A DNA stretch of 41,846 bases from Devosia equisanguinis. GTDB lineage: Bacteria > Pseudomonadota > Alphaproteobacteria > Rhizobiales > Hyphomicrobiaceae. The first letter of the stretch is position 1. Every line of letters begins with the position of its first letter. This document shows, one piece after another, positions 58-40,358 of the stretch. The DNA is taken from positions 1 through 41,846 of the forward strand of contig CAMAYR010000009.1 of the NCBI GenBank assembly GCA_945862355.1, in the 5' to 3' direction. A program made the position numbers and the translations under genes. The notes beneath the pieces are model-generated. The model was not told where the DNA came from. It worked only from the letters and a program-made list of their open reading frames with translations, and searched no databases.

Positions 58-957
58 ATGACCATCCGCATCGGTACCGCCGAGCCCCGCAGCACGTTTC
101 TCGCGCAGGGCAACGCGCTAGCCGCCGTGCTACCGCGGCATGGCGCGCGCGGCCCCTATGAGGTTTTGGAGAGCCCCGCCGCTTCCATCGACAACGCCGA
201 TCGCCTCGATCGCGGCGAGATCGATCTCGGCTTCATGGCCGCCAACTGGATCGGCCGGGCACGACGTGGCGAAAAGCCGTTCGCCGGCCCGATCGACCTT
301 CGCATGGTCGCGCCGATGAACGTCGGCCCGCTGTTCTTCATCGCCCGCGCCGGTTCGGGCATAACCTCCTTCGATGACCTCGCCGGAAAGCGCGTCGCGA
401 CCGGCCCCGCCGGCAGCGGCATGACCCAGCACGCCCACACGATTCTGGCCGCACTCGGCCACGACATCGACTGGATAAAGCCCGCATATCTGTCGTTCGC
501 TGACGGCGCTAAGGCCCTCGCCTCCGGCGAGATCGACGCCCAGCTCCAGTGCCCGATCCCCAACGTCGTCATGTCCGGGCTCGATGCCGCCGTACCTCTC
601 TGCGTGCTGCGCTACACTGATGCCGAGCTCGCAACGCTTCAAGCGAAGGTCTCGTTCTATCGGCGCGCCACCATGCGCAAAGGCGCCCTGCGCGCGCTGA
701 CCGAGGATGCAGCCCAGCCCGGCGTGCTGAACGTGCTGGTCTGCCACGCGCGTGCCGACACGGGAAAAGTCGCTGAGGTTACCGCAGCGATCCTGTCAGC
801 CGCCGCCGATCTCGCCCGCGCCGAAGGACTTTTCAACGGTTTGGCCGACCTTCTCGCCAGTGCCCGGACCGAAGGCGCCCGTCTGCTCGAACCCGACGGC
901 GTCTTCCTCCACGAGGGTGCCCGCCGAGCCTATGCGACCGCCGGTCTTTGGGATTGA
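58..957 (+). CDS. TAXI-family TRAP transporter solute-binding-like protein without obvious signal peptide
   Basis: ORF MTIRIGTAEPRSTFLAQGNALAAVLPRHG...; motifs resembling TAXI SBPs (DDLAGKRVATGPAGSGMTQHA, ALASGEIDAQL). N-terminus starts directly in the first beta-strand. Confidence 0.75.
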   Translation: MTIRIGTAEPRSTFLAQGNALAAVLPRHGARGPYEVLESPAASIDNADRLDRGEIDLGFMAANWIGRARRGEKPFAGPIDLRMVAPMNVGPLFFIARAGSGITSFDDLAGKRVATGPAGSGMTQHAHTILAALGHDIDWIKPAYLSFADGAKALASGEIDAQLQCPIPNVVMSGLDAAVPLCVLRYTDAELATLQAKVSFYRRATMRKGALRALTEDAAQPGVLNVLVCHARADTGKVAEVTAAILSAAADLARAEGLFNGLADLLASARTEGARLLEPDGVFLHEGARRAYATAGLWD

Positions 958-1103
958 GCACACATCCGACCCTCAAAAGCCGTTCACGGGCAATTCACGC
1001 TAAGTTCACTACGAAAGACGGGCAACCTCGTGCAGGTTGTCGCCGCCTTGGGTGCGGCGCTGCCGCACCACAGGGAGCATCGAGAGGCTGACGGGAGCAG
1101 TGG

Positions 1104-3032
1104 ATGACAGGCGAAGTTCGCGCCGTGAACGCAACCGGCGCGGTGATGTTGTTTGGCGGCCCCTACAGCAACCTCGAGGCCACACGTGCAGTCCTCGCGG
1201 AGGCTCAGCGCCGCGCCATCCCCGCCGAGCGGATCATCTGCACGGGCGATATCGTCGCCTACTGCGGCGACCCGGTAGCCACGCTCGAACTCGTGCGCAA
1301 GTCTAATATCCACGTCGTGATGGGCGACGACGACGAGCAGCTTGCCCAAAGCGCGGACGACTTCGATCGCCTCCCTGGCGCCTGGTCCGCCGCCGCCTAC
1401 GCCGACACCCGCATCTCCGCGGAAGACCGCCACTGGCTCGCCGCGCTGCCACATCGCATCGAGCTTCGCATTGCCGGCCTGGACTTCTCGATCGTTCACG
1501 GCGCACCAGACGAGATCAGCCGCTTTATCTTCGCTTCCACACCAGCCCTCGCCAAGAAACGTGAGCTCGAGCGCGCTACGACCGACGGCATCATCGCGGG
1601 CCACTGCGGACTGCCCTTCACCCAGGTGATCGACGGCCGGCTGTGGCACAACCCCGGCGTCGTCGGCATGCCCGCGCACGATGGCACGCCGCGCGTGTGG
1701 TTCTCTATCCTGACGCCCATCGAAGACGGCATCGAGATCGCCCACCACGCGCTTGCCTACGACCACGCTTCCGCCGCCACCGCAATGCGCCGCGCCGGCC
1801 TTCCAGCCGAGTACGAGGCTGCACTTCGCACCGGCATCTGGCCGAGCTGCGATGTGCTGCCGCAACGGGAGATCCACGCCGCCGGCATTCCCCTCGAGCC
1901 CGCCAGCGTGGTCTGGCGGCCGGACCCGAAAGAGCGCGCCACGCGCCGCGGCGCAACGATAACCGAGCGCACGCTCTGGCCGACGAGGCCCCGCGACAAC
2001 CGCAAGCCGCTGGCGCCGGAAAAGTTCAAACACCCCGGCGTGACCGCGAAAGGCGAGCAGCGCGCCCGCGTGCCACTCCGCTCCCTCGATACGCTGTGGT
2101 TCAACACCGGCACGCTGTGCAACATCACCTGTCGCAATTGCTACATCGAATCGAGCCCGAAAAACGATCGCCTCGTCTATCTCGGCCTCGAAGATGTGCG
2201 CGGCTATCTCGACGAGATCGAACGCGATCGCCTGCCGACGAAGGAAATCGGCTTCACCGGCGGCGAGCCGTTTCTGAACCCGCAGTTCCTCGCGATCCTC
2301 GAAGAGTGCCTGTCGCGCGACTACCGCGTGCTGACCCTGACCAACGCGATGCGCCCGATGCAGCGCCACAAGAAAGCGCTGCTCGCCATGAAGGCGCGCT
2401 ACGGCGAGCGCCTCGCCTTTCGCATCTCCCTCGACCACTTCAATGCCGACCGGCACGAGGAGGAGCGTGGCATCGACACGTTCGAGCCGGCGATGTCGGG
2501 CCTCTCCTGGCTCTCCGAGAATGATTTCGAGATCGCCGTTGCCGGCCGCGGTATGTGGGGCGAGACCGAGGCCGCGAGCCGCGCCGGCTTCGCCGCCCTT
2601 TTCGAAGCCCGAGGCATCCGCGTAGAAGCGCGCAATCCTGCAGCGCTCGTGCTGTTCCCCGAGATGGACGAGCACCTCGACGTGCCCGAGATCACGACCG
2701 CCTGTTGGGACATCCTCCACAAATCACCCGACGACATGATGTGCGCCACCTCACGTATGGTCGTGAAGCGAAAGGGCGCCGAGAAGCCTGCCGTGGTCGC
2801 CTGCACGCTACTTGCCTACGAGCCGCAATTCGAGCTTGGCGCAACGCTGAAGGACGTAAGCCGCGCCGTGCCGCTCAATCATGCCCACTGCGCCAAGTTC
2901 TGCGTTCTGGGCGGCGCCTCCTGCTCCCCGGCCGGCACAGAAGCACCAGCCGGACCCGAGCTGCACGAGGCCCGTGGCCAGGCTGCCAACATGGCTGCCG
3001 GCAGCGCCGACCTCGGCCCGATGGACCGCTGA
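1104..3032 (+). CDS. Fusion protein: N-terminal calcineurin-like (metallophosphoesterase) domain, degenerate, plus C-terminal radical SAM domain
   Basis: N-terminal part: CTGDIVAYCGDP, VMGDDDEQ, IVHGAPDE, IIAGHCGLPF, WHNPGVVGMP (metallophosphoesterase-like pattern). C-terminal part: CNITCRNCYIESSP (CxxxCxxC), FTGGEPF, and a C-terminal Cys cluster HCAKFCVLGGASC. Confidence 0.85.
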   Translation: MTGEVRAVNATGAVMLFGGPYSNLEATRAVLAEAQRRAIPAERIICTGDIVAYCGDPVATLELVRKSNIHVVMGDDDEQLAQSADDFDRLPGAWSAAAYADTRISAEDRHWLAALPHRIELRIAGLDFSIVHGAPDEISRFIFASTPALAKKRELERATTDGIIAGHCGLPFTQVIDGRLWHNPGVVGMPAHDGTPRVWFSILTPIEDGIEIAHHALAYDHASAATAMRRAGLPAEYEAALRTGIWPSCDVLPQREIHAAGIPLEPASVVWRPDPKERATRRGATITERTLWPTRPRDNRKPLAPEKFKHPGVTAKGEQRARVPLRSLDTLWFNTGTLCNITCRNCYIESSPKNDRLVYLGLEDVRGYLDEIERDRLPTKEIGFTGGEPFLNPQFLAILEECLSRDYRVLTLTNAMRPMQRHKKALLAMKARYGERLAFRISLDHFNADRHEEERGIDTFEPAMSGLSWLSENDFEIAVAGRGMWGETEAASRAGFAALFEARGIRVEARNPAALVLFPEMDEHLDVPEITTACWDILHKSPDDMMCATSRMVVKRKGAEKPAVVACTLLAYEPQFELGATLKDVSRAVPLNHAHCAKFCVLGGASCSPAGTEAPAGPELHEARGQAANMAAGSADLGPMDR

Positions 3033-3150: not shown

Positions 3151-4014
3151 ATGGCCGATCCGGCATTGAGGAAGGCGCTGAAGAAGCCAGGCATCGTCGT
3201 CGCCCCCGGTGTCTACGATCTGATCTCGGCGCTGGTTGCCGACCGCATGGGCTTCAAGGCCCTCTACGTCACGGGCTACGGCACGGTCGCCTCCGCAATG
3301 GGCCTGCCTGATGCCGGCATCGCGACCTACCGCGACATGGTCGAGCGCATCGGCACCATCGCCCGGATGACCAGGACGCCCGTGATCGCCGACGCCGATA
3401 CCGGCTACGGCGGCCTGCTCAACGTCCGCCACACCATTCGCGGCTACGAGGCGGCCGGTGTCACCGCGATCCAGCTCGAGGACCAGGAGTTCCCCAAGAA
3501 GTGCGGCCACACGCCCAACCGCCGCGTGATCCCGACCGCCGACATGGTGCAGAAGATCCGCGTCGCCTCCGACAGCCGCTCGTCGAAGGACTTCCTGATC
3601 ATCGCCCGAACCGACAGCCGCACCGGCCTGGGCCTGGACGAATCCATGCGGCGGATGGAGGCCTACGCCAAAGCCGGCGCCGACGTCCTCTTCATCGAAA
3701 GCCCCGAGACCGAGGCCGAGATGAAGGCCATCGGCAAGCGCTTCGATCAGCCCCTGCTCGCCAACATGGTCAACGGCGGCAAGACGCCGATGCTGCCCGC
3801 CAAGCGCCTCGCGGAATTGGGCTACCGCATCGCGATCTTCCCCGCGGCAGGCTTCCTCGCAACTGCCGCCGCGCTCGAAGGCGCCTACGGCGAGTTGAAG
3901 GAGGCTGGCACCTCGACCGGCAAGACGCCGATGTACGAGTTCTCCGAGTTCAACAAGCTGATCGGCTTCCCCGACATCTGGGAATTCGAGAAGAAGTACG
4001 GCGTCGGCGATTGA
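3151..4014 (+). CDS. Isocitrate lyase/PEP mutase superfamily protein
   Basis: PGVYDLISALVADRMGFKALYVTGYG, PVIADADTGYGG, AGVTAIQLEDQEFPKKCGH, IIARTDSR motifs; Shine-Dalgarno-like GGGGAG about 8 nt upstream of ATG. Confidence 0.9.
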   Translation: MADPALRKALKKPGIVVAPGVYDLISALVADRMGFKALYVTGYGTVASAMGLPDAGIATYRDMVERIGTIARMTRTPVIADADTGYGGLLNVRHTIRGYEAAGVTAIQLEDQEFPKKCGHTPNRRVIPTADMVQKIRVASDSRSSKDFLIIARTDSRTGLGLDESMRRMEAYAKAGADVLFIESPETEAEMKAIGKRFDQPLLANMVNGGKTPMLPAKRLAELGYRIAIFPAAGFLATAAALEGAYGELKEAGTSTGKTPMYEFSEFNKLIGFPDIWEFEKKYGVGD

Positions 4015-4079
4015 GTAGTCCTGCCCTATCCCGTTCGTGCCAAATGACGATACGGGAAAGGAGGAATCACGAGGTTTGC

Positions 4080-4922
4080 ATGTCCCATCCAGAAAAATTC
4101 CTCCTCGCCGGCGTCATGGGCTGGCCCGTGATGCATTCTCGCTCGCCGCATCTGCACAATTACTGGTTCAAGCAGCACGGCCTCGCAGGCACCTACGTGC
4201 CGCTCGCCATCGAGCCGGACAAGCTCGCCCCCGCGCTGCGCGCGCTTGCGCCCCTTGGTTTCGCCGGCTGCAACCTGACCATCCCGCACAAGGAGGCAGC
4301 CCTCGCCATCGTCGACGAAATCGCTCCGACCGCGAGGAAGATGGGCGCCATCTCCTGCGTCACCGTCCGCAAAGATGGATCGCTCGTCGGCACCAACAAC
4401 GACGGCTACGGCTACATGGCCAACCTCATCGAGGCCCAGCCGACATGGCGGGCGGACGCCGGCCCGGCCGTCGTCATCGGTGCGGGCGGCGGCGCGCGCG
4501 CGGTCGTGATGAGCCTCGCGGAGAAAGGCGCTCGCGAGATCCGCCTCGTCAACCGCACGATGGCGCGCTCCGAGACGCTGGCGCGCGATCTCGGCGGCCC
4601 CGTCGAGCCGCTGCCGTGGGACAGCCGGCACGATGCGCTGGAGGGCGCCAATCTCGTCGTCAACACGACGAGCCAGGGCATGGTCGGGCAAGGCACGCTC
4701 GACTTGAAACTCGACAAGCTGCCCAGGACCGCCGTCGTTTCCGATATCGTCTACATCCCGCTGGAGACGCCGCTGCTGGCAGCCGCGCGCCAGCGGGGCA
4801 ACCCGACGGTGAGCGGCCTCGGCATGTTGCTGCATCAGGCGCGGCCGGCCTGGGAATCCTGGTTCGGCATCAGCCCAGAGGTGACGCCCGAGCTGCGCGC
4901 CCTGATCGAGGCCACGCTTTGA
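4080..4922 (+). CDS. aroE: Shikimate dehydrogenase-like (AroE family) oxidoreductase
   Basis: Internal ATG of ORF 3501..4922 (MSHPEKFLLAGVMGWPVMHSRSPHLHN...); SRSPHLHN, CNLTIPHKEAA, NNDGYGY, VVIGAGGGARAVVMSLAEKGAREIRLVNR. Confidence 0.85.
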   Translation: MSHPEKFLLAGVMGWPVMHSRSPHLHNYWFKQHGLAGTYVPLAIEPDKLAPALRALAPLGFAGCNLTIPHKEAALAIVDEIAPTARKMGAISCVTVRKDGSLVGTNNDGYGYMANLIEAQPTWRADAGPAVVIGAGGGARAVVMSLAEKGAREIRLVNRTMARSETLARDLGGPVEPLPWDSRHDALEGANLVVNTTSQGMVGQGTLDLKLDKLPRTAVVSDIVYIPLETPLLAAARQRGNPTVSGLGMLLHQARPAWESWFGISPEVTPELRALIEATL

Positions 4923-5007: not shown

Positions 5008-5949
5008 TCAAGCCCTGACCAGCCGCTCGATCGGCTGCGGCGGCGTCGCCGACTTGCCCGTGATCGGAACACGCGGCAGCTTCGGCTCCCCCGGATCGAG
5101 CTCGAACGTGAACGACAGCGAAAACCACGGTCCCGTCACGTCGCCATATGGCGCGGGCTCGTTGTCGTGCCGCACGTAGTGCCCGATCAGCCGCTCGGTC
5201 ACGCCGAACTGGCTGTCTGTCTCGAGGTTCGGATCGTCGCTTGAATAGACTTGGCTGATGTGCGCCTTGAAGCCTTGTCTGGTGACCAGGAAGTGGAGAT
5301 GTGCCGGCCGCATGTTGTGCCGCCGAAGGGTGCGCAGCAGATCCCCCGTCGGCCCGTCGAGCGGGATCGGATAGCCGATCGGCTTGATGGTGCTGAACCA
5401 GATCTTGCCTTCGGCATCGGTCGTGAGCTTGCCACGCAGGTTCATCTCGGCCTGTGATGGGTCCTGGTTCTCGTAGTAGCCATCCTCGTTGCAGTGCCAC
5501 ACGTCCACTTCTGCGCCCGCGACCGGCCGACCCGCGCGATCCTTCACGAACGCCTCCACGAACAGGGGCGTGCCCGGTGTCGGCGAGCGCAGCAGCGAGC
5601 CGCCATTCGCCGTCTGCGGGCTCTCCATCCGCCAGAACGGCCCGAGCAGATTAGCCGTCGTCTCGGTGTTGCCGTTGTCGCCGTTGTTGATGAGGCAGAC
5701 GAGCGAGGAGACACCCAGCGAGCCGCACATCAGCACGGCCTCGTTGTGGCTCTCGTTCGACTTCTGCCCGATGCGATTGATGATCGCGCAGGCCTGCTGG
5801 AACTCCTGCTCGCTCAGCTTGGTCTCGCGGATGAAGCCGTGCAGGTGCTTGATGAGCGAGGTCATGATCTCTCGAGTGCGCGGATCCTCCGCGCGCGCCA
5901 TCTCGGCAAGCACAGCGGGCGTCACATCGGCTTGAGTTTTGATGATCAT
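5008..5949 (-). CDS. Intradiol ring-cleavage dioxygenase (hydroxyquinol/catechol 1,2-dioxygenase-like)
   Basis: MIIKTQADVTPAVLAEMARAEDPRTREIM...; ANLLGPFWR, EVDVWHCNEDGYYENQD, GYPIPLDGP, RRHNMRPAHLHF, FTFEL. Confidence 0.9.
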   Translation of the reverse strand: MIIKTQADVTPAVLAEMARAEDPRTREIMTSLIKHLHGFIRETKLSEQEFQQACAIINRIGQKSNESHNEAVLMCGSLGVSSLVCLINNGDNGNTETTANLLGPFWRMESPQTANGGSLLRSPTPGTPLFVEAFVKDRAGRPVAGAEVDVWHCNEDGYYENQDPSQAEMNLRGKLTTDAEGKIWFSTIKPIGYPIPLDGPTGDLLRTLRRHNMRPAHLHFLVTRQGFKAHISQVYSSDDPNLETDSQFGVTERLIGHYVRHDNEPAPYGDVTGPWFSLSFTFELDPGEPKLPRVPITGKSATPPQPIERLVRA

Positions 5950-7280
5950 GATGTCTCGCACGAGCCTGAGTGTTGAACGGAGCAGGCGGCATCTGCACTC
6001 ACGAATACCGGTGCGAAGCCTCCTCCGGGAGTGCGGAAGTTGGTAGTTTGGCCCTGATACAGCCTGGCGGCAAGAAGCTGCACGCGGCCATCGTAAGTGA
6101 AGTTTCTGAAGTCGACCTTCAGGGCCTCGCGCCGACCGTCCACAGCGATGGCACGCATGCTCGGGGGGACGATTTCCTGCGCGACGTAGTCGCCGGACAG
6201 CACCAGTTCCCACGCGCGGCGGGTGATCTTGTCGCCGCGGTAAGCCGCCTTGCTGCCGTAGCCGGACATGGGCTTGAAAAAGTACCGATTGCGACCTGCC
6301 CAGAGTTCGCCGGCATTCGCGGCAGTTACGACGATCGTACGAGGAATGCCGATGCGCAGTGCCTCCACGCAATCTGCCGCCACGCCCCACTCTCTCAGCA
6401 GGTCCACGTCGGTCAGCACAGCGAGGTTGGCCTTGTTGGAAAGTATCGCATGGGCACGTGGATTGGGCGATACCACGACATCTCCAGCGAGATAGGCAGA
6501 GCGCAATGCCGCGCTGACGCCGTCTTCGAGATAGAAGTCGGTCAGCCGATTATACACGACGTCGATACGGATCTGGCCGAGCCATAGCGCACCGTCGCGA
6601 TGCGACAGCTCCTGCGGCTCGGCGATGTACGCGGCCAGCCCCTTCGCCTCCAGGTGCTTCCTGAACAATATGAACTCCGGATAGAGGTACTGCGTTGCCG
6701 GAGCGACATCGACGATCCCGACCGTCGCCATCACGCCACTACGCCCCTGCAAGGACCACTCCGAAGCCAGATTGGCGACGAAGCGATCCTCCACGGCCTC
6801 CGCAGGCTCGGCGGCCGACATCCCGAGCCGCATCTCCTCGCAGCAGGCCCGGTGCGCCCTCGCCACGAATGCGTTGACGATCGCACCCCCGGCATTCGTG
6901 TTGACCTCGATGAGCTTGGGTCCGTCGCCGCCGAGATGGAAATCGTAACCCATGAACACGCCGATCGGGCCTGGACGATACCGGGCGATATCCGGCGCTT
7001 GGCCTAGGACGGCGGCCTCGTATTGCGGCAGCCGAGCGACCGTCTCCACAGCCTCGATCGTCCGCACCATCGCAGCGGCGTGCTCGGTCGACAGGAACAC
7101 GGGCTGACGGGAGACCAGATGCGCATGAGTCCGCAGCAGATCGGCACAAAAGCCGGGATCGCCGACGGCCCGTGTCAGAGCCGCGCATAAGGCATCGGCA
7201 TCCAGAGTCCTGCACGTGCAGTCCTCATTCAGTTGCTCGATGCCGCTTTCTGTCGAACCCGAATTGGCAGCCGCGACCAT
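5946..7280 (-). CDS. ATP-grasp-like protein, apparently circularly permuted
   Basis: FHLGGDGPKLIEVNTNAGGA in the N-terminal half and YFFKPMSGYGSKAAYRGDK ... YVAQEIVPP in the C-terminal half. ATGA overlap with the downstream dioxygenase start. Confidence 0.6.
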   Translation of the reverse strand: MVAAANSGSTESGIEQLNEDCTCRTLDADALCAALTRAVGDPGFCADLLRTHAHLVSRQPVFLSTEHAAAMVRTIEAVETVARLPQYEAAVLGQAPDIARYRPGPIGVFMGYDFHLGGDGPKLIEVNTNAGGAIVNAFVARAHRACCEEMRLGMSAAEPAEAVEDRFVANLASEWSLQGRSGVMATVGIVDVAPATQYLYPEFILFRKHLEAKGLAAYIAEPQELSHRDGALWLGQIRIDVVYNRLTDFYLEDGVSAALRSAYLAGDVVVSPNPRAHAILSNKANLAVLTDVDLLREWGVAADCVEALRIGIPRTIVVTAANAGELWAGRNRYFFKPMSGYGSKAAYRGDKITRRAWELVLSGDYVAQEIVPPSMRAIAVDGRREALKVDFRNFTYDGRVQLLAARLYQGQTTNFRTPGGGFAPVFVSADAACSVQHSGSCETS

Positions 7281-32618: not shown

Positions 32619-32802
32619 TTCTCGTTCGACGGTCGGCATCACAGTCGAAAGCGTGGGGATCGCGCCCGCAATTGGGCGCAATTATCCGATTTTGTCGGTA
32701 GCAGTCTTTCGCCAGTGGCTGGAAATGCGCGCCGCGTTGGGTGATGCTACACTCGACGTCCATCCGCAATTCCGGTTCGCGTGTCTCGTCGAGAGGTTTC
32801 CC

Positions 32803-35800
32803 ATGCTCCGCGCGCTCATCGTTCTGCTGACTGCGCTCGCAGGCTTGCCAGCGATGGCTCAGCAGGCCGCGACGACTTCGGTTTTCACTCATCAAGGGGC
32901 ATCACGAGATGCCGCGCGCTACGAGGCGCAACTCAAGGCAGCGCTGCCGGCGCAACAGCAGAACCGCCGGGCGCGTGATCTCAAGGCGGCAGGGGAGAAG
33001 CTGCTCGCAGCCGGCGCCGACGTGCGGGGAGCCGCACGACAGCTTTCGCAGGCAGCCGCCCTGGAGCCGCAGGATTGGGAGAGCTGGCTCGGCCTGGCTC
33101 GAGCATTGCTCGCCATCAAGCCCTCCGAGAACACCTCCGAACGCTTCGAGCTTCCCACCCAAGCCACCGCCGCAGCCTACACGGCCTATCAGCGTGCGCC
33201 GAACGATGCGGCACGCGCGCTCGCGCTCGTCGTGCTGGGGGAAGCGTTCCGCCGCCGCTCCATATGGCGGCCGGCGATCGATGCACTGCGCGTCAGTCTC
33301 GCGCTCGCGGACAATCCTACCGTCCGCAGGACTTACGAAACGCTGCGCGCCCAGCACGGCTTCCGGATGCTCGACTATACGGTCGAGAACGAAGCGCAGG
33401 ATCCGCGGCTGTGCATCCAGTTCTCCGAGCGATTGCAGCGGGCGGAGGTGGATCTGGCGCGCTTCGTCGCGCTGGATGGCAAGGCAGCCGACAACATCAC
33501 GGGCGAGGGGCGGCAGGTCTGTATCGAGGGGCTGAGCCACGGCAAGCGCTACGAGGTGACTGTGCGCGCGGGGCTGCCTTCGGTGATCGGCGAGGCGCTG
33601 CTGAAACCGGCGATTATTCCAGTCTATGTGCGTGACCGGTCACCGGTCGTGCGCTTCCCGGCCAAGAGCTACGTGCTGCCTTCGCGCGGCCAGCAGGGGC
33701 TGCCCGTCAATTCGATCAACACCAGCCGGCTCGGCATCGAGATCTATCGCGTCGGCGACAGGAACCTGACGGCGGTGACGGGAAGCAACGGCGATTTCAT
33801 GCGGCAGCTATCGGGCTCGGATGCAGCCACGCTCGCGGCCGAGCGGGGCGCCAAGGTCTATTCAGGCGAGCTCGAGGTGACGCCGAGGCTCAATGCGGAA
33901 GTGACGACCGCAGTGCCGATCGGCGAGGCCGTTCCCGAGCTCAAACCCGGCGTCTATGCGATGCTCGCTCGCGTGCTCGATGCCAAGGGCAAAGGCGACG
34001 ACGAGAGTACGGGGCGGAGTGCGACGCAATGGTTCATCGTCTCCGACCTCGGTCTGGCGGCGTTCACCGGCGACAACGGATTGCACGCCTTCGTGCGATC
34101 GCTCACCACGACGGAGCCAGTTCATAATGCCGGCGTGCGGATCGTCGCGCGCAATAACGAAGTGCTGGCGCAGGGACGCACGGACGGAGCCGGTTATGTG
34201 CGGTTCGAGCCGGGAATGGTGCGCGGTGAGGGCGGTCTGCAGCCGGCGCTGCTGATCGCGGAGACGGCGAATGGGCAATACGCTTTCCTGGATCTGGCGA
34301 GTGGTGCTTTCGATCTGTCAGACCGGGGCGTGAAAGGCCGTGCGAGCCCAGGTGCGCTCGATGCCTACCTGTATTCCGATCGCGGGGTCTATCGGCCGGG
34401 CGAAACTGTCCATCTCAATGGGCTCATGCGCGACAAGGCGGGTGCAGCATCGGTGGTGCCGGCCACGCTCATCGTGACGCGACCCGACGGCGTCGAGCAT
34501 GTCCGCATCGCGCTGACGGATCAAGGGCTGGGCGGGCGGGCGCATCAGTTGCGTCTGTCGGGCACCGCCATGACGGGTACGTGGCGCGCGAAGCTTCACA
34601 CCGACCCGAAGGCAGATCCGCTTTCGGCGGCCGCGTTCCTCGTCGAGGATTTCGTGCCGGAGCGACTCGAGTTGCGCTTGAGGCCGGCACAGCCCGCGCT
34701 CGTGCCGGAGGTGGCCGGTACCATCGACGTCACGGGGCGCTATCTCTACGGACCGCCTGCGGCCAATCTCGCCGCAGAGGCGGAGATCGTCGTGAAGACA
34801 GGAACCGTGGCGGGCGCAGTACCGTTCCCGGGCTATCGCTTCGGCCTGGTCGACGAGAAGATCACTCCAGTCCGCAAAGCGCTCGAGAAGGTGCCTGGAA
34901 CGGACGCGAAGGGCGAACTGCCGCTCGAGGTGCTGCTGCCGCCGATCCCGCGCACGGTCCAGCCGCTGATGGCGGAGGTGATGGTACGCCTGCGTGAGCC
35001 GGGCGGAAGGACCATCGAGCGCAAGGTGAGCCTGCCCGTCGATGCGCGCCTGCCGCGGATCGGCATCAAGCCTGCCTTCAGCGGCGATGGTGTCGGCGAT
35101 GGCGAGGCGGCGTCTTTCGATGTCGTCATTCTCGACGAGAGCAGCCGCCGGCTCGGCGGCAAGAGACTGGCATGGACGCTCTACAGGCTCGAGAGCAATT
35201 GGCAGTGGTACCGGCGGGACGATTCCTGGCAGTACGAGGCTGTCACGCTCACGCGAAAGGCCGGCAACGGCCACATCGACAGCCAGACCGACGTGCCGGC
35301 AAAGATCGAGCAAAGGTTGGAAGGCGGACGCTATCGGCTGGAGGTTGCGAGCACCGAGGCTGGCGGACCGGTCACGACAGTCAACTTCAATGTCGGCTGG
35401 TATGGTGGCGAGCAGGCCGATACGCCCGAGATGCTCGACCTAGCGCTCGACAAGTCGGACTACAAGCCGGGCGAGACGGCGAAGCTCAAGGTCGCCTCGC
35501 GCCAGGGCGGCAAGTTGCTCGTCACAGTGCTCGGCGGCGGGCTGCTCGCGCAGCGCACTGTCGATTTGCCCAATGGCGGGGGAGAGGTGTCGCTCGATGT
35601 CGGGCGCAACTGGGGCTCGGGCGCCTACGTGACCGCCTCGCTCTATCGTGCGCTGGACGAGAAACAGCGGCGGATGCCGTCGCGGGCGATCGGGCTCAAG
35701 TGGCTGCAGATCGATCAGTCCGAGCGAACGCTGAAGGTGGCGCTCGGTGCTCCCGACAAGATCGGTTCAGGCTCGCGGCTCACGGTGCCGATCAAGGTCG

Positions 35801-38118
35801 AGGGGCTGGCGCGCGGCGAGGAAGCCCGCGTGACGGTTGCAGCCGTAGATACCGGCATTCTCAATCTGACGCGTTTCGAGGCGCCCAAACCTGAGGGTTG
35901 GTTCTACGCGCAGACGAAGCTTGGCTCGGAAGTGCGCGACCTCTACGGCCGCCTCATCGACGGGATGCGAGCAGAGCGGGGCAAGCTGCGCTCGGGCGGC
36001 GACGGCGCGGAGGGTGGTGGCATGTCGATGTCCGGCAGCCCGCCGGTCGAGACGCTGGTGGCGCTGCATTCAGGCATCGTGAAAGTCGCACCGGACGGCA
36101 CGGCCAGCGTCGCGTTCGATCTTCCCGACTTCAATGGACAGGTGAGCCTGATGGCCGTCGCGTGGAGCGGGGCCAAGGTCGGGCACGGCACGAGAAACGT
36201 GATCGTTCGGGATCCGATCGCGCTCACGGTAACGGCGCCGCGTTTCCTCACGCTTGGCGACGAGGCGCGGCTCGATCTTTCGCTGCACAACGTCGAAGGA
36301 GCAGCGGGTGCCTACAAGCTCGCCGTGGAGCTGGAAACCGCTGCCGGTGCTGGAGCTTCTATCCTGCAGCGCGACGTGGCGCTGAAAGCCAGCGAGCGGC
36401 GCTCCGAACGGCTCACGGTGAAGCCCGGCGAAACGGGTCTCGTCAGCTATGCGGTGCGGATCACCGGTCCCGGCGGCGTGGACGTGAAGCGCCGCCTGAC
36501 GCTCGACGTGAAAGTGCCCGGCGGCGACATCAAGCGGGTGACGGTGGCAAAGATCGCGCCGCGGACAGGCAAGCTCACATTGTCGAAGGATCTGCTGACC
36601 GACCTCATTCCCGGCCGTAGCATGGTCAACGTGAACGTCGGTCCCGTGGCCGCGTTCGACGTGCCGGGCCTGCTGACCCAGCTCGATCGCTATCCATATG
36701 GCTGTGCGGAACAGACGACCTCGCGCGCCCTGCCATTGCTCTACGCCAACGAGATGGCTTCCCAGCTCGGGCTGCGCGCGGACGGCGACATCAAGGAGCG
36801 CGTGCAGGGTGCCGTCGATCGCGTGCTCGAAATGCAGACGTCGTCGGGCGCATTCGGCATATGGGGTCCGCGCAATCCGGACATGTGGCTCACCGCCTAT
36901 GTCACGGACTTCCTGACGCGGGCGAAGGAGACGGGATATCAGGTAAAGCCGCAGGCGTTCACCGCCGCGCTCGACCGGTTGCAGTCGTTCGTGTCCTACG
37001 CCTCCGACTTCGACAAGGGCGGTGAGGACCGGGCCTATGCACTCTATGTGCTGACGCGCAACGGCCGTGCACCGGCCGGCGAGCTGCGCTACTACGTCGA
37101 CACGCGGCTCGAGCGGTTCTCCTCGAGCCTGGCGAAGGCGCAGCTCGGTGCAGCACTCGCCATGATCGGCGAGCGGGAGCGGGCCGAACTGGCGTTCCGC
37201 GCAGCGCTCGATCTGCCGGCGGAAAAGGGGACCGAGTACCGTGGCGACTACGGCTCGCGCATCCGCGATGGTGCCGCGCTTTTGACGCTCGCCTCCGAGG
37301 TGAAGGCCGTGACGGGCGAGGTTCCGCGGCTTGCCAGTGTGCTCGCCAAGGCGTTCTCCGAGCGCACGTACACCTCGACGCAAGAGCAGGCGTGGATGCT
37401 TCTGGCCGCACGCGCACTTTCCGAGCAGGCCCGGACGACGGAGCTCACTGTCGGGGGGATTGCGCACAAGGGTCAGCTCATGCGTCGTATTCGTGGCGCC
37501 GAGCTCATCGACGGGCAACTCGTCATCACCAACGAGAGCGATCAGGCGGTGGATGCGGTGGTGTCGGTGATCGGCGCTGCGCTGACGCCCGAGCCGGCGG
37601 TCGAGAAGGGCTTCCGCATCGAGCGCAGCTACTACACGCTCGACGGGCGGAAGGTGGATCTCGAAAGCGCATCGGGCGGCGCGGGACGCTTGCAGCAGAA
37701 CGATCGCCTCGTCGCGGTGGTGAAGGTCGAGGCCTCCGAGAAGGGCGGGCGGGTGCTGCTCGTCGACCGGTTGCCGGCGGGGCTCGAAATCGAGAACCCG
37801 CGCATCGTCGAAAGCGGCGACGTGAAAAGCCTCGCCTGGCTCAAGACGACGGCGCGGCCGGAGCATTCCGAGTTCCGCGACGACCGGTTCGTGGCCGCAT
37901 TCAATTTCTCCGGGCGGCAGCGCGGCCGGGGAGACGACGACGAAGCCGAGGGCGATGCTACCAAGGGGCCGGTCGCCAGCGCCACCGTCGCCTACATGGT
38001 TCGCGCGGTGACACCGGGCAGCTTCGTGCATCCGGCCGCGACGGTGGAGGACATGTACCGTCCGGAGCGGTATGCGCGGACCGCAACTGGCCGCCTCACT
38101 GTGACGGCGAAGGAGTAG
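32803..38118 (+). CDS. Bacterial alpha-2-macroglobulin family protein with thioester motif
   Basis: Signal-like MLRALIVLLTALAGLPAMAQQ; DRGVYRPGETVHLNGLMRD; DLYGRLIDGM; YPYGCAEQTTSRALP (CxEQ thioester at 36703-36714). Linked to the downstream PBP1C gene. Confidence 0.95.
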   Translation: MLRALIVLLTALAGLPAMAQQAATTSVFTHQGASRDAARYEAQLKAALPAQQQNRRARDLKAAGEKLLAAGADVRGAARQLSQAAALEPQDWESWLGLARALLAIKPSENTSERFELPTQATAAAYTAYQRAPNDAARALALVVLGEAFRRRSIWRPAIDALRVSLALADNPTVRRTYETLRAQHGFRMLDYTVENEAQDPRLCIQFSERLQRAEVDLARFVALDGKAADNITGEGRQVCIEGLSHGKRYEVTVRAGLPSVIGEALLKPAIIPVYVRDRSPVVRFPAKSYVLPSRGQQGLPVNSINTSRLGIEIYRVGDRNLTAVTGSNGDFMRQLSGSDAATLAAERGAKVYSGELEVTPRLNAEVTTAVPIGEAVPELKPGVYAMLARVLDAKGKGDDESTGRSATQWFIVSDLGLAAFTGDNGLHAFVRSLTTTEPVHNAGVRIVARNNEVLAQGRTDGAGYVRFEPGMVRGEGGLQPALLIAETANGQYAFLDLASGAFDLSDRGVKGRASPGALDAYLYSDRGVYRPGETVHLNGLMRDKAGAASVVPATLIVTRPDGVEHVRIALTDQGLGGRAHQLRLSGTAMTGTWRAKLHTDPKADPLSAAAFLVEDFVPERLELRLRPAQPALVPEVAGTIDVTGRYLYGPPAANLAAEAEIVVKTGTVAGAVPFPGYRFGLVDEKITPVRKALEKVPGTDAKGELPLEVLLPPIPRTVQPLMAEVMVRLREPGGRTIERKVSLPVDARLPRIGIKPAFSGDGVGDGEAASFDVVILDESSRRLGGKRLAWTLYRLESNWQWYRRDDSWQYEAVTLTRKAGNGHIDSQTDVPAKIEQRLEGGRYRLEVASTEAGGPVTTVNFNVGWYGGEQADTPEMLDLALDKSDYKPGETAKLKVASRQGGKLLVTVLGGGLLAQRTVDLPNGGGEVSLDVGRNWGSGAYVTASLYRALDEKQRRMPSRAIGLKWLQIDQSERTLKVALGAPDKIGSGSRLTVPIKVEGLARGEEARVTVAAVDTGILNLTRFEAPKPEGWFYAQTKLGSEVRDLYGRLIDGMRAERGKLRSGGDGAEGGGMSMSGSPPVETLVALHSGIVKVAPDGTASVAFDLPDFNGQVSLMAVAWSGAKVGHGTRNVIVRDPIALTVTAPRFLTLGDEARLDLSLHNVEGAAGAYKLAVELETAAGAGASILQRDVALKASERRSERLTVKPGETGLVSYAVRITGPGGVDVKRRLTLDVKVPGGDIKRVTVAKIAPRTGKLTLSKDLLTDLIPGRSMVNVNVGPVAAFDVPGLLTQLDRYPYGCAEQTTSRALPLLYANEMASQLGLRADGDIKERVQGAVDRVLEMQTSSGAFGIWGPRNPDMWLTAYVTDFLTRAKETGYQVKPQAFTAALDRLQSFVSYASDFDKGGEDRAYALYVLTRNGRAPAGELRYYVDTRLERFSSSLAKAQLGAALAMIGERERAELAFRAALDLPAEKGTEYRGDYGSRIRDGAALLTLASEVKAVTGEVPRLASVLAKAFSERTYTSTQEQAWMLLAARALSEQARTTELTVGGIAHKGQLMRRIRGAELIDGQLVITNESDQAVDAVVSVIGAALTPEPAVEKGFRIERSYYTLDGRKVDLESASGGAGRLQQNDRLVAVVKVEASEKGGRVLLVDRLPAGLEIENPRIVESGDVKSLAWLKTTARPEHSEFRDDRFVAAFNFSGRQRGRGDDDEAEGDATKGPVASATVAYMVRAVTPGSFVHPAATVEDMYRPERYARTATGRLTVTAKE

Positions 38119-38228: not shown

Positions 38229-40358
38229 ATGGCGTTCGGTAAGCGAGACAGCGACGCCAGAAGAACTTCACGATTCCGCAGAATAGCGACGGGTGTTCTG
38301 CTGGTCGCGCTGTCGCCGTTCATTGCTTTCGGCACGGGCGCGCTACTCATGGGGCCGGCGCCGATCGCGCGCGGGGAGCACGTGTCTACGACAGTGCTCG
38401 ACCGTAACGGCGAGCTGCTGCGGGCGTTCACCACGCCAGAAGGCCGCTGGCGCTTGCCGATCGAGCCCGGCGATGTCGATCAGCGCTATCTGGCGCTGCT
38501 CTTGGCATTCGAGGACCAGCGCTTCCACCAGCACCGCGGCGCCGATCCGATCGCGTTCGCGCGTGCTGCGTATCAGCTCGTCAAGCACCGCCGTCTCGTC
38601 TCCGGCGGCTCGACACTCACCATGCAGGTCGCGCGCCTGCTCGAGGGCGAGCACGAGAAGACGGCGATGGGCAAGCTGCGCCAGATCGTGCGTGCAGTTC
38701 AGCTCGAAGCGAGCCTCTCGAAGCAGCAGGTGCTGCGGCTCTACCTTCGCCTCGCACCGTTCGGGGGCAATCTCGAAGGCGTGCGGGCAGCGTCGTGGGC
38801 ATACTTCGGCAAGGAGCCGCGGCGGCTGTCGATCGCCGAGGCGGCGCTGCTCGTCGCACTGCCGCAAGCCCCTGGCGTGCGCCGGCCGGATCGCAATCCG
38901 CAAGCCGCGCAGCGCGCGCGCGATCGTGTGTTGGCGCGGGCAATGGAGAGCGGCATCATAACGCGGGAAGAAGCCGCGCAGGCTGTCAGGGAGCGCGTGC
39001 CGACTGCGCGTGCGGAGTTTCCAAAGCACGCCCCGCATCTGGCCGAGGCAGAGATGGCGCGGCAGCCCAAGCTCGCGGTGCATCGGCTGACCGTGGTGCG
39101 GCAGGTTCAGGCGAACCTCGAGACGCTGGCCCGCACCCATGCGCGTGCGCTCGGCGAGCGGTTGTCGGCCGCGATCCTCGCGATCGACCATCGCAGCGGA
39201 GAGGTGATCGCGCATCTGGGCTCGTCCGACTACTTCGACGAGCGCCGCCTCGGAGCCATCGACATGACGGCTGCAGTGCGCTCGCCGGGATCGACGCTGA
39301 AGCCGTTCATCTACGGGATGGGTTTCGAGGCCGGGATCGCACATCCCGAGACGCTGATCGAGGACCGTCCGACGCGGTTCGGCAACTACGCGCCCAAGAA
39401 TTTCGACGAGGACTTCCACGGCACCGTGACGATCCGCGAGGCGTTGGCGCAGTCGCTCAACATTCCTTCGGTCAAGGTGCTCGATACACTGGGACCGGCG
39501 CGGCTCGTCGCGCGCTTCAAACGCAACGGCGTGCTGCCCGTGCTGCCCGGTGATGGCGAGCCCACGCTGGCGATCGCGCTCGGCGGCGTGGGAATGCGGC
39601 TCCGCGATCTGGCGCAGCTTTACGGCGGTCTTGCGCGCGGCGGCGAGGCGGTGGCGTTGTCGCATATCGCAGGCGGCGGAGGAGAGGCCGGCACTCCGGT
39701 CTCGGCAGGGGCCCGCCAAGCGAGAGCGAATCTGCTCACACCGGTCGCGGCGTGGTACGTCACCGACATCTTGAAGGACGCTCCGCCGCCGGCGAGCGCG
39801 ATCGGCGGCCGGATCGCCTACAAGACGGGAACCTCTTACGGGTACCGGGATGCATGGGCAGTCGGCTATGATGGCCGGCATACGATCGCTGTCTGGGTCG
39901 GCCGTGCCGACGGCAGCTCGACGGCGGGCCTGACGGGGCGCGCCGCAGCCGCGCCACTGCTGTTCGATGCCTTCCCACGTGTTGCCCACAGACGTGCGGC
40001 TTTCCCCGCATCGCCGAACGGGACGCTACGCGGGAGCGGGGGCGATCTGCCGCAGCCGCTCAAGCGCTTCCGCGAAGGCGGCGAGGACAGGCCGGCTGGT
40101 GCCTTCCTCGATCCCCCCGTGCAGATCGCGTTTCCGCCCGACCGGTCTGAGCTGGAAGTGGCCGGCGAGGACATACCGCTCGTGCTCAAGGCCCAAGGCG
40201 GCGCGCTGCCGCTGACCTGGCTCGTCGATGGTGCGCCGATCACCGAAGCCGATGGCCGCCGCGAGATCGAATGGAAGCCTCACGGGCGAGGCTTCGTGCG
40301 GCTGTCCGTGATCGATGCGAAAGGGCGCGTCGACCGGGTCACGGTGCGGCTGCGCTGA
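38229..40358 (+). CDS. pbpC: Penicillin-binding protein 1C
   Basis: Glycosyltransferase motifs EDQRFHQHRGADP and GGSTLTMQVARLL; transpeptidase SPGSTLKPFIYG (SxxK), SLNIPS (SxN), KTGTSYG (KTG). ATG 38229 has GGAAGA upstream; ATG 38184 is an alternative start. Confidence 0.95.
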   Translation: MAFGKRDSDARRTSRFRRIATGVLLVALSPFIAFGTGALLMGPAPIARGEHVSTTVLDRNGELLRAFTTPEGRWRLPIEPGDVDQRYLALLLAFEDQRFHQHRGADPIAFARAAYQLVKHRRLVSGGSTLTMQVARLLEGEHEKTAMGKLRQIVRAVQLEASLSKQQVLRLYLRLAPFGGNLEGVRAASWAYFGKEPRRLSIAEAALLVALPQAPGVRRPDRNPQAAQRARDRVLARAMESGIITREEAAQAVRERVPTARAEFPKHAPHLAEAEMARQPKLAVHRLTVVRQVQANLETLARTHARALGERLSAAILAIDHRSGEVIAHLGSSDYFDERRLGAIDMTAAVRSPGSTLKPFIYGMGFEAGIAHPETLIEDRPTRFGNYAPKNFDEDFHGTVTIREALAQSLNIPSVKVLDTLGPARLVARFKRNGVLPVLPGDGEPTLAIALGGVGMRLRDLAQLYGGLARGGEAVALSHIAGGGGEAGTPVSAGARQARANLLTPVAAWYVTDILKDAPPPASAIGGRIAYKTGTSYGYRDAWAVGYDGRHTIAVWVGRADGSSTAGLTGRAAAAPLLFDAFPRVAHRRAAFPASPNGTLRGSGGDLPQPLKRFREGGEDRPAGAFLDPPVQIAFPPDRSELEVAGEDIPLVLKAQGGALPLTWLVDGAPITEADGRREIEWKPHGRGFVRLSVIDAKGRVDRVTVRLR

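Follow-up and report, generated by a model that had tools for sequence, protein, structure and literature searches.

A calcineurin-fold domain with an altered metal centre fused to an ArsS-like radical SAM enzyme in Devosia equisanguinis

A gene in a 41,846-nt stretch of the Devosia equisanguinis genome (hereafter, the window) raises the question of what a calcineurin-like phosphoesterase domain may be doing at the N-terminus of a radical SAM enzyme when several of its canonical metal ligands have been replaced. The preliminary description of this DNA had read the gene as one uninterrupted 642-aa ORF joining both domains, had termed the phosphoesterase half degenerate, had suggested that it might act as a non-catalytic sensor or substrate-binding domain, and had not recognised the architecture as that of a characterised system. 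Architecture, family, ligand pattern, co-occurrence, operons and fusions were computed here, and the features on which the argument draws are located in Table 1.

The single reading frame was borne out by ORF reading, Pfam and orthologues, and the fusion architecture and family assignment are near certain. Metallophos_2 (PF12850) matches residues 24-196 with 38.9 bits, above its Pfam gathering cut-off of 27, and Radical_SAM (PF04055) matches residues 334-479 with 57 bits (cut-off, 29.5), while orthologues of the same architecture are 69-71% identical over some 620 aa. The fusion is present as a single copy in the genome of the window and also in three other genomes of the genus, at full length in two of them (71-72% identity) and truncated at a contig end in the third. 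An antisense ORF of 578 aa (984-2720, minus strand) spans most of the gene and is probably a high-GC shadow ORF; gene calling by codon usage preferred the plus-strand gene. An AlphaFold2 model of the fusion (pLDDT 81.8, pTM 0.67) supports the two folds, the arrangement of one half with respect to the other being not well determined. A full-text literature search, judged by title and abstract, returned no description of a calcineurin-like domain fused to a radical SAM enzyme. The architecture recurs in at least 13 genomes, with 13 complete fused copies. Relatives of the whole fusion lie on contigs titled Bradyrhizobiaceae, Devosia, Afipia, Ancylobacter, Acetobacteraceae and Acidocella, several of which are metagenome-assembled genomes whose names may be imprecise, and whole fusions were additionally identified in five of the sampled genomes.

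Table 1. Location of the fusion gene, its domains and motifs, and the adjacent upstream gene in the window.
Feature	Position (nt)	Strand	Basis or conservation
TAXI/NMT1-type substrate-binding-like protein, directly upstream of the fusion	58-957	+	Conserved in four genomes of the genus
642-aa fusion ORF, calcineurin-like domain and ArsS-like radical SAM enzyme	1104-3032	+	ORF, Pfam, gene calling
Calcineurin-like (MPE) domain	1137-1925	+	Family profile A1, 373 bits; fold match to 3rqz, 3qfm (SapH) and 1nnw
Motif I GGPYSN (aa 18-23; canonical DxHGN); D to G19 and H to Y21, site-1 ligands lost	1155-1172	+	G in 48/48 readable
Motif II, Asp49 of GD; bridging ligand retained	1248-1250	+	D in 46/49
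GDDD (aa 74-77) for the family GN(C/V)E; window-specific N to D75 and C to D76	1323-1334	+	Comparison with relatives
Site of 30-bp in-frame deletion between D86 and F87; CGCGFxxGS loop removed, third Cys now F87	1359-1364	+	DNA alignment with L031 and L032
Motif IV HG (H132), retained	1497-1502	+	49/49
Motif V GHCG (aa 166-169); H167 retained, second His to G169, site-1 ligand lost	1599-1610	+	First His 46/49, second His 0/49
Radical SAM domain	2013-2930	+	Family profile A2, 540 bits
CNITCRNC, CX3CX2C radical SAM [4Fe-4S] motif (C339, C343, C346)	2118-2141	+	Invariant in the family
C-terminal C534, C547, C567, C596, C600 and C607	2703-2924	+	Invariant or at least 90% conserved

In the standard two-metal scheme of the calcineurin-like superfamily, the ligands lost here make up site 1 and those kept make up site 2. 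The motif readings given earlier (GGPYSN, GD, GDDD, HG, GHCG, CNITCRNC and GGEP) all agreed with the sequence. Comparison with 49 homologues reveals that the site-1 ligands (the Asp and His of motif I and the last His of GHxH) are missing from the window copy and from every homologue that can be read, with the motif I Asp and the last His of GHxH each present in 0/49; in the alignment with 3rqz, the Asp and His of motif I are likewise replaced by Gly and Tyr, and the last His of GHxH by Gly. The site-2 ligands (D, N, H and H), on the other hand, are each conserved in at least 45 of the 49 (motif III Asn, 45/49), and a loop of the form C-x-C-G-(F/Y)...C, bearing three cysteines, is found in 45/49. 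Set against catalytic two-metal metallophosphoesterases, the family lacks the ligands of site 1 and possesses those of site 2. The term degenerate is apt for site 1, but not for site 2 or the three-Cys loop, and even at the GHCG position, where the second His has indeed gone, the first one (H167), likewise a metal ligand, is retained. Because the losses comprise exactly the three site-1 ligands, while the site-2 ligands and the three cysteines are conserved, the family pattern is the mark of a repurposed site and not of decay. Abolition of site 1 with retention of site 2 is very probably a trait of the whole family, and binding of a metal at the remaining site 2 seems, on balance, probable. 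A non-classical role for this half is likely, and a sensor or substrate-binding role, as originally suggested, is possible.

The best structural matches of the MPE half are 3rqz (Foldseek TM-score of 0.78 by target length), SapH (3qfm), 1nnw and 2gju. SapH and 3rqz have in common with it the fold, the motif order and the retained GD, GN and GH, but they still possess the Asp/His region of motif I lost here (SDVHAN in 3rqz) and lack the three-Cys loop. The Pyrococcus proteins 1nnw and 2gju share the calcineurin fold and the absence of most catalytic motifs (1nnw alignment), but have lost more ligands and are not fused. VPS29, a eukaryotic retromer subunit that uses the calcineurin fold as a protein-binding scaffold, is a weaker structural match. 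Beyond the aligned homologues, locus L054 encodes, at 3852-4802 and two genes from a solo radical SAM gene, a 317-aa protein without Pfam match; it is a distant homologue of the MPE family (hhalign probability of 97%, 21% identical) and keeps the CGC of the Cys loop. Divergent free-standing MPE proteins without GD, GH and Cys loop were also observed at three loci, in genomes without the radical SAM partner.

Within this family, the window copy is exceptional in having lost the whole cysteine loop. Besides the 30-bp deletion, DNA alignment with two congeners (L031 and L032) reveals a 6-bp insertion and the replacement of AAC-TGC by GAC-GAC (Asn, Cys to Asp, Asp) and of TGC by TTC (the third Cys to Phe). 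The GDDD noted in place of GNHD was read correctly, but it is confined to the genome of the window, given that all three readable congeners present GNC and relatives in general GNC or GNV; metal binding by D75, which replaces the motif III Asn, is conceivable. A frameshift or assembly artefact was considered as the source of the loop loss and is unlikely, because the deletion and the insertion are both in frame and separate substitutions affect other Cys and Asn codons. The MPE half of the window is 68-70% identical to that of the congeners and the radical SAM half 77%, whereas between the two congeners identity is similar for the two halves (73% and 71%), which argues that change in the window lineage affects the accessory half and spares the radical SAM half. 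Since the Cys loop is absent from this lineage, its accessory half would have given up or altered this part of its role, with the radical SAM half left intact.

The radical SAM half had been described as possessing intact CNITCRNC and GGEP motifs, and this was confirmed, the three cysteines of the former being invariant in the family; the six conserved C-terminal cysteines are possible ligands of an auxiliary cluster or of the substrate. Its best NCBIfam match is NF049973, the Rv1681 family (84 bits, yet below the cut-off of 380), followed by TIGR04167 (ArsS; 54.4 bits, cut-off of 300), and no ArsL model was among the 25 NCBIfam matches listed. Given the distance between 54 and 300 bits, equivalence to ArsS is drawn from genomic context only. 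The best structural matches are SkfB, BlsE and SuiB. The family has in common with ArsS the radical SAM core, the TIGR04282/TIGR04283 glycosyltransferases and genomes with ArsM-like genes, and it differs, besides the score, in its N-terminal calcineurin-fold domain or separate partner of that fold. Rv1680, an NCBIfam name for a family of substrate-binding-like proteins, is echoed here by the substrate-binding-like gene beside the fusion, the product of which begins directly with the mature domain, shows no evident signal peptide and is a possible partner of the fusion. Downstream, a gene of the PEP-mutase/isocitrate-lyase family (3151-4014) was considered as an organoarsenical or phosphonate partner and rejected, as it is absent beside the fusion in L031 and L032. 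Elsewhere in the window, a 444-aa protein (5946-7280, minus strand) with a sub-threshold match to circularly permuted ATP-grasp (E of 0.007) and no NCBIfam family adjoins an intradiol dioxygenase, and a bacterial alpha-2-macroglobulin (32653-38115, plus strand) precedes a penicillin-binding protein with transglycosylase, transpeptidase and BiPBP_C domains (38349-40355, plus strand), an ordinary known pair.

The relationship between both halves can be followed in genomes where they are encoded apart. Among 298 genomes of the order, the MPE profile was found in 41 and the radical SAM profile in 95, with both in 36 (Fisher test ignoring relatedness, 1e-15); the corresponding figures for 231 genomes of the class are 19, 71 and 16 (7e-7, relatedness again ignored). 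Only five genomes of the order present MPE alone: three of one genus, in which the remaining MPE ligands have been lost too, and two that are 85-86% complete. Conversely, 59 of the 95 genomes with the radical SAM gene have no recognisable MPE partner, and hence the radical chemistry can do without MPE; the latter being found where the radical SAM gene is, but not vice versa, it behaves as an accessory. Most genomes encode a radical SAM protein of about 340 aa and some also an MPE protein of about 300 aa elsewhere. The class sample includes six genomes with adjacent genes on the same strand, radical SAM first and MPE second, so that the fusion has the opposite order. Trees are star-like and neither demonstrate nor reject a single origin of the fusion (AU p = 0.26). 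A functional pairing of the two halves can be put forward with high confidence and, since in related bacteria both parts are separate genes that travel together, the altered MPE domain probably functions as a partner in a little-known arsenic pathway instead of being a relic. Two further observations concern separate genes. A complete genome of the same class, of only 1.2 Mb and 31% GC, has retained the radical SAM and MPE genes alike, and at five loci a free-standing MPE, with GNV or GNI instead of GNC, lies just 3' of three conserved genes that, by eye, resemble nitrile hydratase subunits and an accessory protein.

The case for arsenic comes from the company of the radical SAM gene. TIGR04283 (at least 124 bits) occurs in 89 of the 95 radical SAM genomes of the order, though in most genomes of the order its gene lies away from the radical SAM gene, and relatives of TIGR04282 and of TIGR04283 lie near it in 10 loci each. 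ArsM-like methyltransferases are found beside or near the gene in three loci (L039, L040 and L041), that of L040 resembling the arsinothricin ArsM (355 bits, cut-off of 500), and MTAP also in three (L033, L034 and L041). Other recurrent neighbours are a MerA-like oxidoreductase, PhnD-type transporters, TVP38-like membrane proteins (these recognised by eye) and, in six loci, the TIGR03169 (N-terminal to SelD) oxidoreductase family; several genomes have the pair close to metZ/apaG/folE-type genes, linked to methionine and other housekeeping functions, and not to arsenic genes. Canonical ArsS was identified in one of the 298 genomes of the order, which has TIGR04283 but lacks this radical SAM gene. 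No arsenic genes lie inside the window itself. Elsewhere in the same genome, one contig carries TIGR04283 and TIGR04282 above their cut-offs and another an apparent ArsR-ArsC-ArsM operon beside a phosphate-type ABC transporter, with ArsR and ArsC read from the sequence, as the family scan covered the methyltransferase and the two glycosyltransferases. The ArsM-like protein of this operon scores lower than the curated ArsM cut-offs and is 61% identical to its counterpart in the L041 cluster (Pontixanthobacter). Radical SAM enzymes are reported to adenosylate arsenic during oxo-arsenosugar synthesis and, in arsinothricin synthesis, to transfer a 3-amino-3-carboxypropyl group to it (PMC12159101, a review; PMC8552651); for ArsS in such a context, our literature search gave only a review and the arsinothricin cluster paper. 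An organoarsenical pathway is, on this evidence, the reasonably likely setting of the radical SAM family.

The best explanation, to which we give about even credence, is that the radical SAM half is an ArsS-like enzyme belonging to an organoarsenical (arsenosugar-type) pathway and is coupled to a repurposed calcineurin-fold partner. We infer an arsenic chemistry in which ArsM would supply a trivalent methylated arsenical and the radical SAM half would cleave SAM and add a 5'-deoxyadenosyl group to it, the product being then processed by TIGR04282/TIGR04283-type glycosyltransferases and, in some relatives, also by an MTAP-like phosphorylase. The calcineurin-fold half, with no two-metal centre but with a putative mononuclear site (D49, N/D75, H132 and H167) and, in relatives, the three-Cys loop, would most likely bind or process the substrate or product of the radical enzyme. 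A more specific form of this proposal, in which an unnamed calcineurin-fold family serves an alphaproteobacterial ArsS-equivalent as dedicated partner and performs or gates a missing step of organoarsenical synthesis in bacteria, its thiols holding trivalent arsenic, is offered tentatively, and arsenic binding by the Cys loop, which the window copy lacks, is equally speculative.

Several other readings have to be weighed against this one. The MPE half might be an active mononuclear hydrolase that removes phosphate or a nucleotide from the product of the radical enzyme, such as a sugar-1-phosphate made by the MTAP-like phosphorylase; the conserved site-2 ligands, the presence of MTAP near the gene in three loci and the closeness to SapH, named as an asymmetric Ap4A hydrolase and phosphodiesterase, are congruent with such an activity, but site 1 is lost in every copy and the window copy also lacks the Asn ligand and the Cys loop; we regard a hydrolase as unlikely. 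The view of the preliminary description, extended to a VPS29-like scaffold or sensor that stabilises or regulates the radical SAM enzyme, appears no more probable: it fits the structural resemblance to VPS29 and to the ligand-poor 1nnw/2gju, as well as the loss of the loop in a window copy whose radical SAM half stays conserved, but a mere scaffold would not require site-2 ligands and three cysteines that persist in at least 45 of 49 homologues, nor a CGC kept even in the distant L054 protein.

It would be equally improbable for the MPE half of the window to be a decaying relic, with only the radical SAM half of any consequence. The disappearance of the Asn, of all the family loop cysteines and of the loop itself, together with the relatively faster divergence of this half, might be taken in that sense; the half has neither stops nor frameshifts, however, and it preserves D49, H132 and H167 at the identity to congeners reported above. 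Finally, the pair could act on a substrate other than arsenic, in selenium, sulfur or methionine-salvage chemistry for instance, as the recurrent metZ/apaG/folE-type neighbours, the TIGR03169 family and a nearest NCBIfam match to the Rv1681 family instead of ArsS might indicate. Set against the ArsM-like genes at L039, L040 and L041 and the near-complete co-occurrence with TIGR04283, this possibility is a minor one, if slightly less remote than the preceding three.

To our knowledge, the enzymes acting after ArsS in bacterial arsenosugar synthesis have not been established. A partner protein that, across the Alphaproteobacteria, is co-inherited with an ArsS-like enzyme and occurs fused to it or in one operon with it constitutes a concrete candidate, and with it the question becomes testable. 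In addition, the family clearly exemplifies how a two-metal phosphoesterase fold appears to have been rebuilt as a one-site, thiol-bearing domain.
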